Source of the DNA: a virus
Virus record (IMG/VR): IMGVR_UViG_3300022686_000079
Location: 1 to 35,018 of that record
Strand: one strand, 5' to 3'
DNA length: 35,018 bases
Positions 3,799-13,649 of the stretch are shown one piece after another (the first letter of the stretch is position 1; each line of letters begins with the position of its first letter). The notes beneath the pieces are model-generated. The model saw only the letters and a list, made by a program, of their open reading frames with translations. It was not told the origin of the DNA and did not search any database. The translations under genes and the position numbers were made by a program.

Positions 3799-4677
3799 TT
3801 AACATTTAACAACAGAAGTAAGCCATTTTACTATAGGCTCTTTTCTGTATGGTTCCAAATCCATTACCTTTAGTTCGGGAATAGATTTATAATCAATCGT
3901 GCCTTTACATACGCTCTTCAGAAGCTTAACGCCTCCCCCGATGGCGCTAACTCCTCCTGAGCATTCAATAAGAGCTTCTTTTACTTTACTTTCTTCCTCT
4001 TGTAAAGTTTTCAGCTCTTGTTTCTTCTCTTTAACGCGCTCGTTAACGGAAATAAACTGCTTAGCTAGTTCGTTCCACTCCGCTCCCTCTTGAGTGGTAA
4101 CGTCTTTGCTTCCGAGCGGTGGTGCAGTAAAGTTTCGAACGTAATTAATGAAGTTCCCCTCTTCCTCAATAATCCGTTCGATCATTTCCTTATCGGGAGA
4201 AACTTCAACTAACTTGAAGTCACCATTTCGATAAGAAAAGTAGTGTAGCATTTCGATATTATATAATGCAAGCCCTACTGCGAGCTGGTGCTGCAGCTGC
4301 GGAATATATTTTTCTGGAACTAAGCCTTTATGGGCGAGCTCGTGATCCGCAGGATTAGCCGTTTTGATCTCAACAATCACGCTCTGCATCGGATCTATTC
4401 CGTCCAGGCTAGCCATCATGTAGTCTATTTCGGGATGAAACACGACTTGCGGTGAAATTGGTGTACCCGTATGCTTAGTGTAAGCATCGCGTGCCACGGG
4501 CTCAAGATCGTGACCACGTTGCATGTGCGGAAGTGTGGGGCTCTCACGAATCCCCAACTTTTCTTCCCATAGCTGGTAAGGTGTCTTATACGGGCTAACC
4601 CCTAGGATGATAGGCGCATCACTCGCACCTATCATCTTTTTTCTTAATTCCTTCCATTCTTCTGTATTTTGCTTCAT
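3799..4677 (-). CDS. YqaJ-type phage recombination exonuclease
   Basis: 292 residues. N-terminal MKQNTEEWKELRKKMIGASD is the standard YqaJ opening (W8, R12, GAS at 17-19). Then RGHDLEP (54-60) and the PD-(D/E)xK site: D92 in ASLDG, E103 and K105 in VEIKTA, and the QLQHQ helix at 127-131. A coiled-coil C-terminal half follows (about 195-240). The family digests double-stranded ends 5' to 3' to give the 3' single strand used in annealing. Its start shares one base with the ERF gene stop, matching the usual exonuclease/annealing-protein pair. Confidence 0.92.
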   Translation of the reverse strand: MKQNTEEWKELRKKMIGASDAPIILGVSPYKTPYQLWEEKLGIRESPTLPHMQRGHDLEPVARDAYTKHTGTPISPQVVFHPEIDYMMASLDGIDPMQSVIVEIKTANPADHELAHKGLVPEKYIPQLQHQLAVGLALYNIEMLHYFSYRNGDFKLVEVSPDKEMIERIIEEEGNFINYVRNFTAPPLGSKDVTTQEGAEWNELAKQFISVNERVKEKKQELKTLQEEESKVKEALIECSGGVSAIGGGVKLLKSVCKGTIDYKSIPELKVMDLEPYRKEPIVKWLTSVVKC

Positions 4678-5318
4678 TATGCTACCTCTACTTTTGTTGT
4701 TGATTTTTGAAGTTGTGCAATTACATATTTAAAAACATCCTCAGACATATGCGATAGCTTATCAACGCCATGGTGCGCTTCAAGCCAAACTAGCAGAGCT
4801 TGACGCCGTTCGACGTTGTCACCGAGCCAATACTCCAGTTCTGCGTATTGATCGTCTGAGATCCTCTTAGTTTCCTCTGCAGACACATCATGGGCCAACG
4901 TATCGTGAGCTTCCACGTCGTCTTCATCGCCAGTCTCTAAACAAAAAGTTTTAAGTAAAGCGTACTTGATAGCGTATGTGTACGCCTTGCCAATGCCCTT
5001 ATCTTGATTGTCGACGCCCTGCCCCACAGAACAAGTGACGATTTTATCAGAAGGGTCATCGATGTTGATAAAAGCAATCTCTACCTTAAGAGTAGTCAGA
5101 TTGCCCGACTTCTCATGTTCGATGATGTTTGGTACCATCATAATTCGATGTTTAGTAAATGCAGTATGAAACTTCTTCATAACTGCATCTGCTTGAACAA
5201 ACGAGTATAGTCCGTTTACTTTTTTATCACACTTTTGGATATAGGCAATATCACCCATCACCGCATTTAACTTTTGATAAATGTTCTTTTTTTTCTCGTT
5301 AATTTTTTCTTTACCCAT
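4677..5318 (-). CDS. erf: ERF-family single-strand annealing protein
   Basis: 213 residues. The ERF core is at about 12-137, with the diagnostic block DKGIGKAYTYAIKYALL followed by ETGDEDDVE (106-136). P22 Erf and relatives anneal complementary single strands during circularisation and recombination of phage DNA. It is encoded directly upstream of the YqaJ exonuclease. The C-terminal 70 residues are more variable, as in the family, and probably mediate protein contacts. Confidence 0.93.
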   Translation of the reverse strand: MGKEKINEKKKNIYQKLNAVMGDIAYIQKCDKKVNGLYSFVQADAVMKKFHTAFTKHRIMMVPNIIEHEKSGNLTTLKVEIAFINIDDPSDKIVTCSVGQGVDNQDKGIGKAYTYAIKYALLKTFCLETGDEDDVEAHDTLAHDVSAEETKRISDDQYAELEYWLGDNVERRQALLVWLEAHHGVDKLSHMSEDVFKYVIAQLQKSTTKVEVA

Positions 5319-5320
5319 AA

Positions 5321-5539
5321 CTACTCCATGGTTTTGTATAGCGGTTCAAACGCTCTTGTTACGTCGTCATCGTCGCCAGTTTCACTTATAAAAAAGATTA
5401 GATCATGAATCCAATCAGCAATCTCTTGCTCGGTTCGACTTCTTATGAAAAGTCGTATCATATCTTTTTGTTTGTGTGTGTTTTTCATTGTATAGTCTGC
5501 AAAAAAATTCATTAAGTTATCTTTATTCATGGTCTTCAC
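5321..5539 (-). CDS. Small early protein, unknown (related to 5523-5822)
   Basis: 72 residues, helical. The segment KQKDMIRLFIRSRTEQEIADW...FEPLYK resembles KDKVRIIESL...FAIWVD...FFPLFN in the upstream neighbour, suggesting an old duplication. It ends 2 nt before ERF and overlaps the upstream gene by 17 nt, so translation is probably coupled. Confidence 0.6.
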   Translation of the reverse strand: MKTMNKDNLMNFFADYTMKNTHKQKDMIRLFIRSRTEQEIADWIHDLIFFISETGDDDDVTRAFEPLYKTME

Positions 5540-6066: not shown

Positions 6067-6357
6067 TTATTTATCTACTTTTGTTATAGTCATCAATTTT
6101 TTGTACTCACCGCAAAAGTCACCCCAGATTGTAATTGAGTTGGCTTCAACGTCTGCGTCACCCTTGGTGGGAAAACGCAGGAATGATTCGTACGATTGAT
6201 CTCCATCAATGTTTTTAAAAGAAACTAAAAAACGTTGCTTCTTTATCACTTCACGTATACCTCTATCTTCTTCAAAAAGGTGGTTGTACGTGTGGAAGCG
6301 TGCGCCTGGTATAAGCGCACGTTTAAAATCTTCAATTGTTTTCCATGGTTTAGTCAT
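6067..6357 (-). CDS. Small early protein, unknown (paralogue of 7002-7292)
   Basis: 96 residues. WKTIEDFKRALIPGARFHT, then GIREVIKKQRFLVSF and FLRFPTKG line up with LADLKRAMKLGSRWKTT, KIREIVEVKTSKVGFF and WFEFPKST in the 7002-7292 product. The two are probably diverged copies of one family, with a compact beta-rich fold. The ATG overlaps the stop of the upstream gene. Function unknown; such small early proteins often act on host or defence factors, but nothing here shows that. Confidence 0.6.
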   Translation of the reverse strand: MTKPWKTIEDFKRALIPGARFHTYNHLFEEDRGIREVIKKQRFLVSFKNIDGDQSYESFLRFPTKGDADVEANSITIWGDFCGEYKKLMTITKVDK

Positions 6358-6548
6358 GGTTTTTCCGTATCAATTTTTAATTTTTGTATTTCGATTAACT
6401 TATTATGAAAATCTTTTACTTCATTATGAATTGCTTTTATGTCAGCTCTGCTAGCGAGATAAAGCGATACCCATATTCCCATAAAAGTTAAAAAAATTGT
6501 TAGGTTAGCACCTATGATTAAAATAATTTGTAAAGTCTCATCATTCAT
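6354..6548 (-). CDS. Small membrane protein with coiled-coil tail
   Basis: 64 residues. A single transmembrane segment at about 8-31 (IILIIGANLTIFLTFMGIWVSLYL) is followed by a polar helix (IKAIHNEVKDFHNKLIEI) with heptad spacing. It would be anchored in the inner membrane with the helix free. The position in the early operon argues against a lysis role. Function unknown. Confidence 0.6.
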   Translation of the reverse strand: MNDETLQIILIIGANLTIFLTFMGIWVSLYLASRADIKAIHNEVKDFHNKLIEIQKLKIDTEKP

Positions 6549-10052: not shown

Positions 10053-10301
10053 ATGGATGACCTAAATGTAATTAACTTTTATGACTTTTACGAAGACTGT
10101 TACGGTGATTTTCCGATGTGGGCTGTATACCTGCGTGGTTTACGATACCGGGAAGGTCTGACCCAAGTTCAACTAGCGGAACAGCTTGGTATTAAACAAA
10201 GTCATATCAGTGAAATGGAGAATGGAAAAAGAACAATCGGGAAAAAAATCGCTAAAAGATTGGAAAATATATTTGGTACCGACTATCGATTGTTCTTGTA
10301 G
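10053..10301 (+). CDS. XRE/CI-type HTH repressor (single domain)
   Basis: 82 residues. HTH_3 domain at about 27-78: LRGLRYREGLTQVQLAEQLG, IKQSHISEMENGKRTIGKKIAKRL. The N-terminal 26 residues are acidic and aromatic. There is no S24 peptidase domain, so it is not cleaved like lambda CI. Its leaderless transcript and palindromic operator resemble lambda cI transcribed from PRM. It resembles solitary antitoxin-type regulators as well, but the neighbouring divergent gene shows no toxin motif I know. Confidence 0.75.
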   Translation: MDDLNVINFYDFYEDCYGDFPMWAVYLRGLRYREGLTQVQLAEQLGIKQSHISEMENGKRTIGKKIAKRLENIFGTDYRLFL

Positions 10302-10546: not shown

Positions 10547-10825
10547 TTATCCATTCCTCTCCTGTCCGCTCCTCTCCTGCCCATTCCAGTGCATAGGATC
10601 TTCATTATCATTTTTTTCTTTCTTTGATTTGCAATCAAGCCAATATCTTAAACAACTTAACCCACAAAAGTGATGCTTTCTTTCCAACATAGGCTTCATT
10701 AAAATATCAACTGTCAATTGTTCTATGTTTGGTATTTTCTCACAATCAAGGACAACCCTCCAAGAATCACAACAGTATGTATCAGCTAAGTCTTTTTTAC
10801 ATGAGTCGCAGAAAATTTTTTTTAT
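10547..10825 (-). CDS. Cysteine-rich protein with ATA in the start position
   Basis: 92 residues. Cysteine groups CDSC (6-9), CC (18-19) and CGLSC (54-58) suggest a zinc-binding protein; no named family recognised. No ATG/GTG/TTG is available at the N-terminus. ATA at 10825 has AAGG 7 nt upstream and overlaps the stop of the preceding gene as ATAA, the way ATGA overlaps work. The last 15 residues (HWNGQERSGQERNG) are encoded by a pentamer array. ATA initiation is inferred. Confidence 0.5.
   Translation of the reverse strand: MKKIFCDSCKKDLADTYCCDSWRVVLDCEKIPNIEQLTVDILMKPMLERKHHFCGLSCLRYWLDCKSKKEKNDNEDPMHWNGQERSGQERNG
10551..10590. repeat. CCNNT pentamer array D (8 units)
   Basis: Eight in-register pentamers such as CCATT, CCTCT, CCTGT, CCGCT; one ends in C. 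In the leftward mRNA they read ANNGG. This array encodes the C-terminus of the upstream gene and lies before the YgiT-like gene. Confidence 0.85.
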
Positions 10826-10917
10826 TGTGATGCCTTTTTTTTAATTAATTCATCAATTCTTATCCAATATTTTCCTTTTTTCGGAAGTCTATCGTAAACG
10901 CTAATCCAATTAGCCAT
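10822..10917 (-). CDS. Truncated DUF551-type protein
   Basis: 31 residues. MANWISVYDRLPKKGKYW carries the N-terminal signature of DUF551 (WISV.DRLP), but the protein stops where the family normally continues for some 40 more residues to a HWMP-type end. The ATG lies inside an AATGG pentamer of array C. The downstream gene overlaps its stop. It may be a remnant or a functional small form. Confidence 0.55.
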   Translation of the reverse strand: MANWISVYDRLPKKGKYWIRIDELIKKKASQ

Positions 10918-10983
10918 TCCATTCCATTCCATGCCTCTCCCATCCCCTCCTGTCCATTCCCCTCCAGTCCTCTCCATTCCACT
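10914..10983. repeat. CCNNT pentamer array C (14 units)
   Basis: Fourteen pentamers in one register; 13 fit CCNNT exactly (CCATT, CCTCT, CCCAT, CCCCT, CCTGT, CCAGT, CCACT) and one ends in G (CCATG). It lies between the membrane-protein gene (stop at 11011) and the DUF551 remnant, whose ATG it supplies. Confidence 0.9.
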
Positions 10984-11010
10984 TAAGTAAAGGTTTCCTT
11001 TTGTTACATC

Positions 11011-11346
11011 TTACCGTTGTATATGTACGGGATATGATATAGGGTGTATCTTGTTCTCTGATTTGTATAGTTTTTTGATCAAGAATAATTCTCGGTAGTG
11101 CTTGGCTTGATACGCATTTGACGCACAGTCAAGTCCCACTAGTAGAAAAACAGTTCCGAGTAGCCATCCTAAAAGTGTCCTGCCAAGATATGTTTTGTAC
11201 CCAATACTATTATTTTCTAAGTGAAACATAAAGCAACCAAATGCAATAAGTGCTAATCCTATTCCTATGCAGTAAGGTGCCATCTCCCCAGATATCTGAG
11301 CGTTTTGCAATGCCTGCTCTGCTGCCTTCTCGTATAAATCGCTCAC
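11011..11346 (-). CDS. Small membrane protein, two transmembrane segments
   Basis: 111 residues from GTG 11346. Transmembrane segments at about 23-41 (MAPYCIGIGLALIAFGCFMF) and 55-73 (LGRTLLGWLLGTVFLLVGL), then a basic C-terminal tail. The GTG overlaps the stop of a 13-codon frame (11387-11346, MTKDKRNTRRSAK), suggesting translational coupling since the GTG itself has little SD. Two segments and small size would fit a holin, but the operon position among non-lytic genes does not support that. Function unknown. Confidence 0.55.
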   Translation of the reverse strand: MSDLYEKAAEQALQNAQISGEMAPYCIGIGLALIAFGCFMFHLENNSIGYKTYLGRTLLGWLLGTVFLLVGLDCASNAYQAKHYRELFLIKKLYKSENKIHPISYPVHIQR

Positions 11347-11387
11347 TACTTTGCCGATCGTCTAGTATTACGTTTATCCTTAGTCAT
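11346..11387 (-). CDS. 13-codon reading frame coupled to the membrane protein
   Basis: ATG at 11387, stop TAG sharing a base with the GTG of the next gene. Encodes a very basic peptide. The evidence is only its position; it may be a leader that brings ribosomes to the weak GTG start. Confidence 0.25.
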   Translation of the reverse strand: MTKDKRNTRRSAK

Positions 11388-11417
11388 GTCTGCTCATTAA
11401 TTATTCCTTTAAAAAAA

Positions 11418-11512
11418 CCATTCCATTCCACTCCTTTCCTCTCCGATCCAGTCCCTTCCCTTCCAGTCCCTTCCATTCCCATCCACTCCTATCCTATCCT
11501 ATCCTATCCAGT
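11418..11512. repeat. CCNNT pentamer array B (19 units)
   Basis: Nineteen units in register, including CCGAT, CCAGT, CCCTT and a run of four CCTAT. It fills the gap between the end of the 11524 gene and the membrane-protein gene. Confidence 0.9.
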
Positions 11513-11523
11513 AAAAAAATAAG

Positions 11524-12114
11524 CTACTCAAACTCAATATCAATAACTTCAAAACGTCCATATCCAAGGGTTCGCATTTCTGCTATCCCTTGCAACTTTC
11601 CGCAATCTTCAACGATTTTTTTAATGTGTTGCTTTGAGATCAAAGTATCGTCGACTAGTAATTCAAATTCAGTCTCCCAGCCTGGTGAGCAAGCTACTCT
11701 GTAGCGTACATTACGCCCTTTCGTATTAGGGTTAGCTACCATTCGTACGTCGATGTAAACGGGTAAAGATGAATCGATAGGGACGTCCTGATCTGAAATA
11801 TTTTCCCAGTCGTCAAACATTTTGCGATTAAGGTAAGCTTTCGATGTTAGTACGTTAACTGCCGAAATCCATGTTTTTTGTATCGAACCACGGCCTACTT
11901 TTGTATGCACTGCAGCATTCTTTAAAGCAGCAAAAATGTAATTGTCGGGTATGTATAATTTTCCGTTGTCGTGAAAATACGAGTTTCTCCACTCGTCTGG
12001 ATTATTCCCTGAGCTGCCAGATTTTGGTTTCGATAAAGCCGTAAGTGCTTCAATGTTGAATTTATGAAAAACTAGTGGTTTAATACCTTTAATTTTAATT
12101 TTCGCTGTTAACAT
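11524..12114 (-). CDS. Conserved phage protein of the KGR/GRF type, possibly RAMP-like fold
   Basis: 196 residues. The order KIKGIKPLVFHKF (7-19), LYIPDNYIFAALKNAA, RGSIQKTW, NTKGRNVRYR, GKLQGIAEMRTLGYGRFEV (near the end) is that of a conserved protein I associate with many phages and mobile elements, usually annotated as hypothetical. The glycine-rich end and two-fold layout recall RAMP (Cas5/6/7-like) ferredoxin folds; this is an impression, not a match. ATG 12114 has AAAGGAT as SD. Flanked on both sides by pentamer arrays. Confidence 0.6.
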   Translation of the reverse strand: MLTAKIKIKGIKPLVFHKFNIEALTALSKPKSGSSGNNPDEWRNSYFHDNGKLYIPDNYIFAALKNAAVHTKVGRGSIQKTWISAVNVLTSKAYLNRKMFDDWENISDQDVPIDSSLPVYIDVRMVANPNTKGRNVRYRVACSPGWETEFELLVDDTLISKQHIKKIVEDCGKLQGIAEMRTLGYGRFEVIDIEFE

Positions 12115-12140
12115 AAGATATCCTTTTTTTGTTTAAATTT

Positions 12141-12265
12141 CCGTTCCATTCCTCTCCTGTCCAATCCTCTCGGCTCCATACCTCTCCATTCCTGTCCAAT
12201 TCTCTCCATTCCCATCCCCTCCTTTCCTGTCCTTTCCATTCCCCTCCTTTCCTTTTCTATCCATG
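12141..12265. repeat. CCNNT pentamer array A (25 units)
   Basis: Twenty-five pentamers in one register; 21 fit CCNNT exactly and the exceptions (CGGCT, CCATA, TCTCT or TCTAT, CCATG) differ at a single conserved position. It contains the stop codon of the 12532 gene and precedes the 12114 gene. Confidence 0.9.
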
Positions 12266-12532
12266 TTGAAAATTCCACAAGATAGTTTCGTGGTTTCGAA
12301 AGTTTTCTTGGTAAAAAACCATAGTTGAAGCGTAATAGTTGATGATGTCCTGTTTACGGTAAAGAAGCTTGCCTTCAACGTAAAACTTAGGGGGGGCATA
12401 TCCCCAAGATTCTGCCGTATTCAAATCTTTTTTGTTATGAAAAATCCCTAGAATAAGCAAATCTTTCTTAGATAAAAATTGCTGCCTAGCATAGCGATCT
12501 TCTAGAAGATTTACAAAATCATGAATTTTCAT
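12257..12532 (-). CDS. Excisionase/AlpA-like winged-helix DNA-binding protein
   Basis: 91 residues from ATG 12532 (a longer frame to 12550 runs through the -10 box). FLSKKDLLILGIFHNKKDLNTAESWG, then KFYVEGKLLYRKQDIINYY is the layout of MerR/excisionase-like winged helices (target recognition helix, then wing with R-K-D). The ATG is 7 nt after a -10, so the mRNA is probably leaderless. It is the first gene of the leftward operon and the natural candidate to bind the palindrome in its own promoter. Confidence 0.65.
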   Translation of the reverse strand: MKIHDFVNLLEDRYARQQFLSKKDLLILGIFHNKKDLNTAESWGYAPPKFYVEGKLLYRKQDIINYYASTMVFYQENFRNHETILWNFQHG

Positions 12533-12539
12533 ATCGGTG

Positions 12540-12603
12540 ATGATATACACCCGAAAAATTTATGTCAAGCCACTTGACATTTTATATTCGGAATGCATAT
12601 AAT
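12540..12603. promoter_or_regulatory. Divergent promoters sharing a palindromic operator
   Basis: Perfect inverted repeat TGTCAAG-CCA-CTTGACA at 12563-12579. Its two arms each contain TTGACA on opposite strands. Rightward: TTGACA (12574-12579), 18 bp, TATAAT (12598-12603). Leftward: TTGACA (12563-12568), 17 bp, TATCAT (12540-12545). One bound dimer would cover both -35 boxes and shut both operons. Confidence 0.85.
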
Positions 12604-12635: not shown

Positions 12636-13649
12636 ATGAAATTTATCATTTTAAACCAAAACCATAACACTGGAGATACTATGCCTATTAAAAATTTGAA
12701 TATAGAAGAAAATTACACAGTTGTGAGCACCGAATTTTGTCAGGACACCCGATTAACTCCGCAAACCAAAGGGATGTTAATTGACCTGTTTTCTCGTCCC
12801 GAAGACTGGGATATCAACATCCAAGGACTCATGCAGATGACTCACGGGATAGGGCGGGTAAAGCTCTACAAGAGCCTCAAACAGGCAGTGAAGTGTGGAT
12901 ACATGGTGCGTCTGCCGCAAAGTCGGAACGTAAAGCACCATTTCGCCAAAACGACCTGGATTGCGTGTCATGTTCCATTTTTGGCCGAAGAGCTGGACGA
13001 TGAAACGGTCGAAAAAATGTTCAACAACCAGATTTCGAACGAAGAATTTGACAAAATTTACAACCTCCAAATTACCAAAAAAGGTAATGCTGAAAATGTG
13101 GAAAAAATGTTCATAAGTGACGACAAATTGTTCAAAACTATTTTTACCATAGATCAAAAACGAATTGCGGGAATGAATAGAAATCCCGACAATAGCAAAA
13201 CCGCATGCAAAAATAGAACACAACAAAGTACTATATTAACAAAATATAATATAGAGAATAACAAATATGTTATAGGTCCTGATGTATCAGAACCGCATGC
13301 AGAAACGAACACAAAAAAGCCGCATGCAGAAAACAAACATGCGGATGAAATATCCTGGAACAAGGAGCAAAAAAAGTTTCAAAATTTGACAGATTGTAAA
13401 ATACAACTCTACAAGGAAGCTTTTCCTCGAATAAACCTGGAAAGAGAGCTTAGCGCCATGAAACTTTGGTTGACAAATAACCCCAAAAGGGCCAACAAAA
13501 AGGACTGGAACAAATTCATAACCAACTGGCTAACAAAAGCATACGACAAACAGCAACGGTATGAAGCCTATGCAGCACAGTCGGACAAAGGCAAAGTAAT
13601 GAGCATCAGAGACATCCCAAGCGTAGACTCGGAGGATCTAGGATGGTGA
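12636..13649 (+). CDS. Phage replication initiator (O-like, winged-helix N-terminus)
   Basis: 337 residues. The N-terminal domain (about 16-110) has the replication-protein pattern YTVVSTEFCQDTRLTPQTKG, LFSRPEDWDINIQGLMQMTHGI, GRVKLYKSLKQAVKCGYM. The middle is a low-complexity linker with repeated PHAE; the C-terminal part (about 250-330) is helical and may bind the helicase loader. ATG 12636 has a perfect AGGAG; an in-frame ATG at 12681 also has TGGAG and would fit relatives that start nearer the YTVVS block. Iteron-like repeats lie inside the gene. First gene of the rightward operon. Confidence 0.8.
   Translation: MKFIILNQNHNTGDTMPIKNLNIEENYTVVSTEFCQDTRLTPQTKGMLIDLFSRPEDWDINIQGLMQMTHGIGRVKLYKSLKQAVKCGYMVRLPQSRNVKHHFAKTTWIACHVPFLAEELDDETVEKMFNNQISNEEFDKIYNLQITKKGNAENVEKMFISDDKLFKTIFTIDQKRIAGMNRNPDNSKTACKNRTQQSTILTKYNIENNKYVIGPDVSEPHAETNTKKPHAENKHADEISWNKEQKKFQNLTDCKIQLYKEAFPRINLERELSAMKLWLTNNPKRANKKDWNKFITNWLTKAYDKQQRYEAYAAQSDKGKVMSIRDIPSVDSEDLGW
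13201..13344. other. Probable replication origin inside the initiator gene
   Basis: CCGCATGC direct repeats at 13201, 13293 and 13320 (the last two extend to CCGCATGCAGAAA) and an inverted CATGCGG at 13338-13344. Between the first and second lies a strongly AT-rich stretch (about 13216-13275) suited to unwinding. Iterons plus AT-rich DNA within the initiator gene is the arrangement of lambda ori in O. Confidence 0.6.

Follow-up and report, generated by a model that had tools for sequence, protein, structure and literature searches.

A very probable VIPR locus in a P22-like phage

The window, that is the whole 35,018-base viral record analysed here, carries P22-like portal, coat and terminase genes and contains what is very probably a VIPR locus of a P22-like short-tailed phage, in which a 196-aa protein is Vipr and four arrays of GGA/NN pentamers are vrRNA guides. 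A linked gene of the Vipr family, the fold of its product, and the design, strand and position of the arrays together identified the locus as a VIPR system. The following features were found (window coordinates):

10551..10590, minus strand: array 1, 8 units, vrRNA-like ANNGG (GGA/NN) pentamers
10914..10983, minus strand: array 2, 14 units, vrRNA-like, with a small hairpin (GCTAAT-TGG-ATTAGC) after the array
11418..11512, minus strand: array 3, 19 units, vrRNA-like, starting 12 nt past the vipr stop codon
11524..12114, minus strand: vipr (between arrays 3 and 4), coding for a 196-aa phrog_4652-like protein of the RAMP/Cas7 kind, predicted to bind guide RNA
12141..12265, minus strand: array 4, 25 units, vrRNA-like ANNGG (GGA/NN), ending about 27 nt before vipr
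12257..12550, minus strand: 97-aa ORF upstream of array 4, with its stop codon in array 4; no family, no conserved relative
12540..12568, minus strand: promoter-like site TTGACA-17-TATCAT oriented towards the cassette, from a match to the consensus alone

VIPR (Viral Interference Programmable Repeat), a CRISPR relative encoded by phages, was reported in 2026 (bioRxiv, April/June; PMC13142463, doi 10.64898/2026.04.26.720920) as RNA-guided DNA recognition with a gapped code, and it may predate CRISPR. According to the main text of that paper, a VIPR system consists of a Vipr RAMP protein, usually one accessory gene (loci “typically include” one) and vrRNAs of 9–16 YNNGG repeats followed by a structured invariant 3′ tail. 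The RAMP gene is flanked by these intergenic pentamer vrRNAs with a fixed GGY and a hypervariable NN, and all types are described as having GGY/NN “or a related consensus”, the latter in supplementary Figure S17. Through its NN pairs the vrRNA reads double-stranded DNA, skipping one base, as a means of repressing competing phages and satellites, and in the SUSP1 system such RNAs were shown by experiment to act as programmable guides. Besides SUSP1, the described systems include a type II system from a Pseudomonas fulva prophage; the words GGA and tRNA are absent from the main text (PMC13142463).

By extension from these published relatives, transcription of all four window arrays in the sense of vipr would yield vrRNA guides. 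Vipr subunits, we infer probably one per pentamer, would coat the RNA by gripping the fixed GGA bases, and the NN pairs would base-pair with a DNA target with one base skipped between pairs (NNxNNxNN). Binding of the target would then silence genes of a competitor, be it another phage, a satellite or a prophage.

Pentamer arrays in the window

The initial annotation, made from the letters of the window, had described four arrays of 8, 14, 19 and 25 units (66 pentamers) in unbroken register, all of which were recovered at the same coordinates. The information content computed over the 66 units was 1.80, 1.89, 0.28, 0.10 and 1.58 bits at positions 1–5 of CCNNT, in agreement with the description of positions 1, 2 and 5 as nearly fixed (CC..T) and positions 3 and 4 as free. 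The latter contained 14 of the 16 possible dinucleotides, only CG and GG being absent. On the gene strand the pentamers read GGA-NN, and a GGA every 5 nt in the RNA sense, as previously noted, is correct. The longest perfect CCNNT run comprised 19 units, whereas 50 first-order Markov shuffles gave no run above 3 and the opposite strand none above 2; the reversed pattern gave 0 matches versus 25 for CCNNT. The alternation of fixed and free positions had been ascribed to selection on the fixed bases, which we consider correct. The free positions, however, had been taken as the unconstrained part; most likely it is they that carry the information, as the letters of the guide.

The annotated overlaps between arrays and reading frames also held up: ORF 12257–12550 terminates inside array 4, ORF 10547–10717 passes through array 1, which supplies its protein tail, and CAT at 10915–10917 can serve as a minus-strand start (the ATG at 10917). 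The arrays had further been placed at successive junctions of one operon. This needs qualifying, as the 196-aa gene is the only one with support; for the small ORFs that separate the remaining arrays there was no Pfam, PHROGs or neighbour support. No function could be assigned to the arrays or the small ORFs from Pfam, Rfam or PHROGs, and no strong hairpin or structured 3′ tail was detected at the window arrays apart from the small hairpin after array 2.

The spacing GG-N3-GG might be thought to serve formation of a G-quadruplex in RNA or DNA, as GG every 5 nt suits, judged from sequence, a two-tier quadruplex with 3-nt loops. We regard this as extremely unlikely: such a structure needs neither a fixed third base nor a long unbroken register, and the linkage of the arrays to a RAMP gene is left unexplained.

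The vipr gene and its product

The window protein matched PHROG 4652 (E 6e-15), and its gene is closely flanked by arrays, which lie 27 nt upstream and 18 nt downstream of the vipr profile match. The family profile led by the window protein (A2) matched PDB 36pp, “SUSP1 Vipr protein”, at E 6.2e-43, and an isolate-rich family profile matched the same entry at E 2e-73. A Felixounavirus family member matched SUSP1 Vipr at E 1.5e-127, whereas the match of the window protein by itself was weak (E 0.0025); the window protein was linked to the isolate-phage family by hhalign at 97.7%. The C-terminal G-rich motif GYGRFEV is kept across the Vipr family, in line with Vipr as a single-RRM RAMP homologue that has a G-loop. 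The AlphaFold (AF2) model of the window protein had a mean pLDDT of 85.6, and its best Foldseek matches were Csm3/Cas7-type RAMPs of CRISPR type III (Csm3 chains, E 1.6e-8). Matches of the window protein to diphtheria toxin (E 0.11 or worse, 26 residues) were dismissed as chance.

Identity with a class 1 CRISPR-Cas system was considered and rejected. The tandem-repeat search of the region gave pentamer arrays only and nothing of the repeat-spacer type of CRISPR; among the tested proteins of the stretch examined, no further one was recognised as cas-like.

Linkage of arrays and vipr across viruses

Viral contigs were scanned with the degenerate CCNNT array pattern alone, and unit diversity was read for each match. 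Many unrelated contigs (35–67% G+C) were found to carry several degenerate arrays each, on one strand only, with the CC orientation opposite to that of the neighbouring genes. A profile built from the array-adjacent gene (window 11524–12114, minus strand) matched 34 loci including the window, with 25 distinct proteins; nine of these loci were its own seeds. About 30 loci besides the window, found from the array pattern alone, encode a homologue of the window protein beside the arrays; nearly all of the 34 loci were obtained in this manner, L146 being found by protein search. The arrays of all 34 loci have GG on the gene strand, without exception. An early idea, that A-to-N mutagenesis as in DGRs had acted on a CCAAT template, was dropped when the link to vipr appeared.

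The reverse test, a search with the protein alone, detected the family in Felixounavirus HY02, LittleE, Trine, MakoManhole, prophiBWHA-1 and LESphi2. No CCNNT arrays were present in the flanks of these six isolated phages; the third base was C in LittleE, Trine, MakoManhole and LESphi2 (GGC) and T in HY02 (GGT), and prophiBWHA-1 showed a weak array. When IMG/VR was scanned for GGY arrays, vipr was found in 90 of 120 loci, with the array strand equal to the gene strand in 89 of the 90. The general motif is GGx-NN, with x constant within one phage. Two further Vipr homologues (L283:5001-5576 and L284:5001-5582), which belong to another clade than the window, had no GGxNN array in the flanks examined, and they are possibly array-less or have their arrays elsewhere.

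These homologues bear on the functions that had been proposed from the recurrent GGA. Sponge RNAs for CsrA/RsmA, of the CsrB type, carry recurrent GGA, and the GGA every 5 nt in the transcript would fit such a sponge as well as tandem Shine-Dalgarno-like sites that trap ribosomes. Since the third base is C or T in homologues with the same gene and layout, both functions fail as general explanations. Besides, sponges of this type differ from the window arrays in the absence of a strict 5-nt register and of a link to a RAMP gene, and it is the RAMP gene that the arrays were found to track, not a CsrA gene or a start of translation, which makes a sponge or ribosome trap very improbable. A third suggestion, that the arrays are (passive) recombination spacers, is argued against by the tight linkage to a RAMP-type protein.

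The comparison with cellular genomes concerns a further possibility, that the arrays are a neutral degenerate microsatellite or an assembly artefact. Array 4 does contain an imperfect duplication, detected by tandem-repeat search, and uniform CCNNT microsatellites do occur in cellular genomes. Among matches of 14 units, however, 21 of 29 in viral contigs were degenerate, compared to 2 among the first 119 listed from cellular genomes, the other 117 being mostly plain microsatellites. The cellular CCNNT repeats listed were thus nearly all uniform, unlike the window arrays, and a cellular origin of the degenerate arrays was rejected. As information is confined to three positions and the same design, gene and strand recur in independent contigs and isolated phages, we give this possibility hardly any credence.

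Some contigs showed unusual arrangements. In L152 (Spongiibacteraceae MAG PAKT01000050.1), a contig binned as a bacterium, thirteen close-set GGA arrays were found beside vipr at 4449–5346; it is probably a provirus or a misbinned phage. L043 (10496–11781) and L130 contain about 20 consecutive vrRNA-like blocks of 6–17 units separated by gaps of mostly 4 nt, nearly all of which end in the same two units, AAAGG AACGG (sense); these would make up a long array of guides whose 3′ ends are constant. In L041, L116, L255 and L274 several degenerate GGA arrays each were present, with no Vipr homologue recognised in the stretch examined; these may have divergent or truncated vipr genes.

The window clade and turnover of guides

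In a tree of 35 proteins, GGA arrays were distributed across several deep branches, although the sample was chosen partly by GGA arrays and does not measure their frequency. The window fell into a clade with L146, L072, L047, L095 and L269 (100/100 support, long branch). Four other clades contained a conserved downstream partner gene, in agreement with what the VIPR paper describes for vap, whereas comparison of neighbours revealed no conserved accessory (vap) gene in the window clade; as it has neither a family nor a conserved relative, we do not assign the 97-aa ORF (12257..12550) as such a gene.

Pairwise comparisons within the clade were discordant. The window and L146 showed 79% identity in Vipr and a terminase match of 37%, while the window and L072 showed 57% in Vipr and 70% in terminase, so that transfer of the VIPR cassette from one phage backbone to another is probable. 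The window and L146, its nearest relative, had at most 3 consecutive units in common, which equals the shuffled expectation; the guides of these related phages have no common run beyond it, and the guides thus turn over completely while Vipr remains 79% identical. An AATGG unit is common to most array 3′ ends in both phages, so that the terminal unit probably does not vary and is no part of the guide.

Search for targets

Natural targets were searched for in IMG/VR viral contigs with 8-unit seeds of arrays 2, 3 and 4 under the rule of one skipped nucleotide. Seed matches numbered 4, 13 and 30 for arrays 2, 3 and 4, respectively, and no natural target was found, as no match extended beyond chance. 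The best extensions, of one extra unit (L288), two extra units (L298) and one unit on each side (L432), are compatible with chance given the number of matches. All-against-all matching of guides and targets in the collected loci showed no excess either (25 for skip 1; other skips gave 17–38 and reversed guides 21). The outcome, which covers arrays 2–4, is a null result and not evidence against targeting.

The arrays could alternatively be binding sites for Vipr itself, either DNA operators or an autoregulatory RNA site setting the level of Vipr, with no recognition of a target. They directly flank vipr, and no target was found for the three scanned arrays, both of which favour this reading. 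A simple binding site, however, requires neither complete turnover of the free positions nor 14 of 16 dinucleotides, and in the homologous SUSP1 system such RNAs were, in the published account, proven to be programmable guides (PMC13142463). We consider this reading unlikely, and the arrays are best explained as VIPR guides.

tRNA-like elements after arrays in relatives

After arrays in L146, Trine, LittleE, MakoManhole and prophiBWHA-1, short elements were found in which a canonical T-arm (TTCGANT loop) is closed by an acceptor-like stem. These minihelices contain no D or anticodon arm; in L047 a full tRNA-like gene lies 8 nt after an array. The tRNA-like elements located directly after vrRNA arrays were:

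L146:10810-11140
L276:5579-5860
L277:4725-4905 and 6185-6370
L280:1650-3130
L281:4870-4915
L047:6887-6956

Across 412 kb, 19 T-arms had the sense orientation and 1 the antisense. The acceptor halves paired better with each other than with shuffled partners except in 14 of 5000 permutations, a rough test given that the elements are few and partly related. Among the GGY loci such T-arms followed arrays only in L326 and L417, and no tRNA-like element was found at the window arrays. The elements are possible signals for processing by RNase P/Z, and they offer a testable route for guide maturation.

A tentative reading, which may well prove wrong, combines these observations. The window clade would form a VIPR variant of its own, with GGA instead of GGY as its code and without an accessory protein. 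In several lineages, two phages of the clade among them, the post-array elements, whether minihelices of acceptor stem and T-arm or a complete tRNA-like gene, would recruit host RNase P/Z, which would then release the single guides. The change from Y to A may also alter the skip rule or the contact with the repeat.

Surroundings of the cassette

Two divergent near-perfect matches to sigma-70 promoters were found at window positions 12540–12603, overlapping a 19-bp inverted repeat at 12562–12580, ATGTCAAG-CCA-CTTGACAT. Both lie between the VIPR cassette and a replication-like gene (12636–13649), and the site looks like a shared operator. On the other side, just past array 1, a small HTH_3 (Cro/CI-like) regulator (10053–10301, plus strand; Pfam E 5e-13) is transcribed towards the cassette.

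Comparison with known systems

The window locus agrees with the described VIPR systems (SUSP1, P. fulva type II) in having a homologous Vipr RAMP gene with intergenic arrays on either side, made of pentamers with two free letters and lying on the gene strand, and in being carried by a phage. It differs in its third fixed base, which is A and not C or T, in arrays of up to 25 units (8, 14, 19 and 25) versus the published 9–16, in the lack of a conserved vap gene in the window clade and in that no structured tail was seen in the window. The longer arrays may hold overlapping vrRNAs, and as the paper states that loci “typically include” an accessory gene, its absence was not taken as a bar to membership. 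The loci of isolated phages (Felixounavirus HY02, Mycobacterium phage LittleE, Gordonia phages Trine and MakoManhole, and Pseudomonas phage LESphi2) share gene family and array layout with the window and differ from it in GGC or GGT arrays and a conserved downstream partner gene; those of actinobacteriophages additionally carry tRNA-like hairpins after the arrays. To class 1 CRISPR-Cas systems (type III Csm3/Cas7) the likeness lies in the RRM-type RAMP fold of Vipr, whereas the stretch examined showed a single minimal RAMP, with no CRISPR array and with no other gene recognised as cas-like. Compared to the described VIPR systems, the window locus and its relatives present the gapped design with A as the third letter across a deep, varied range of viral contigs.
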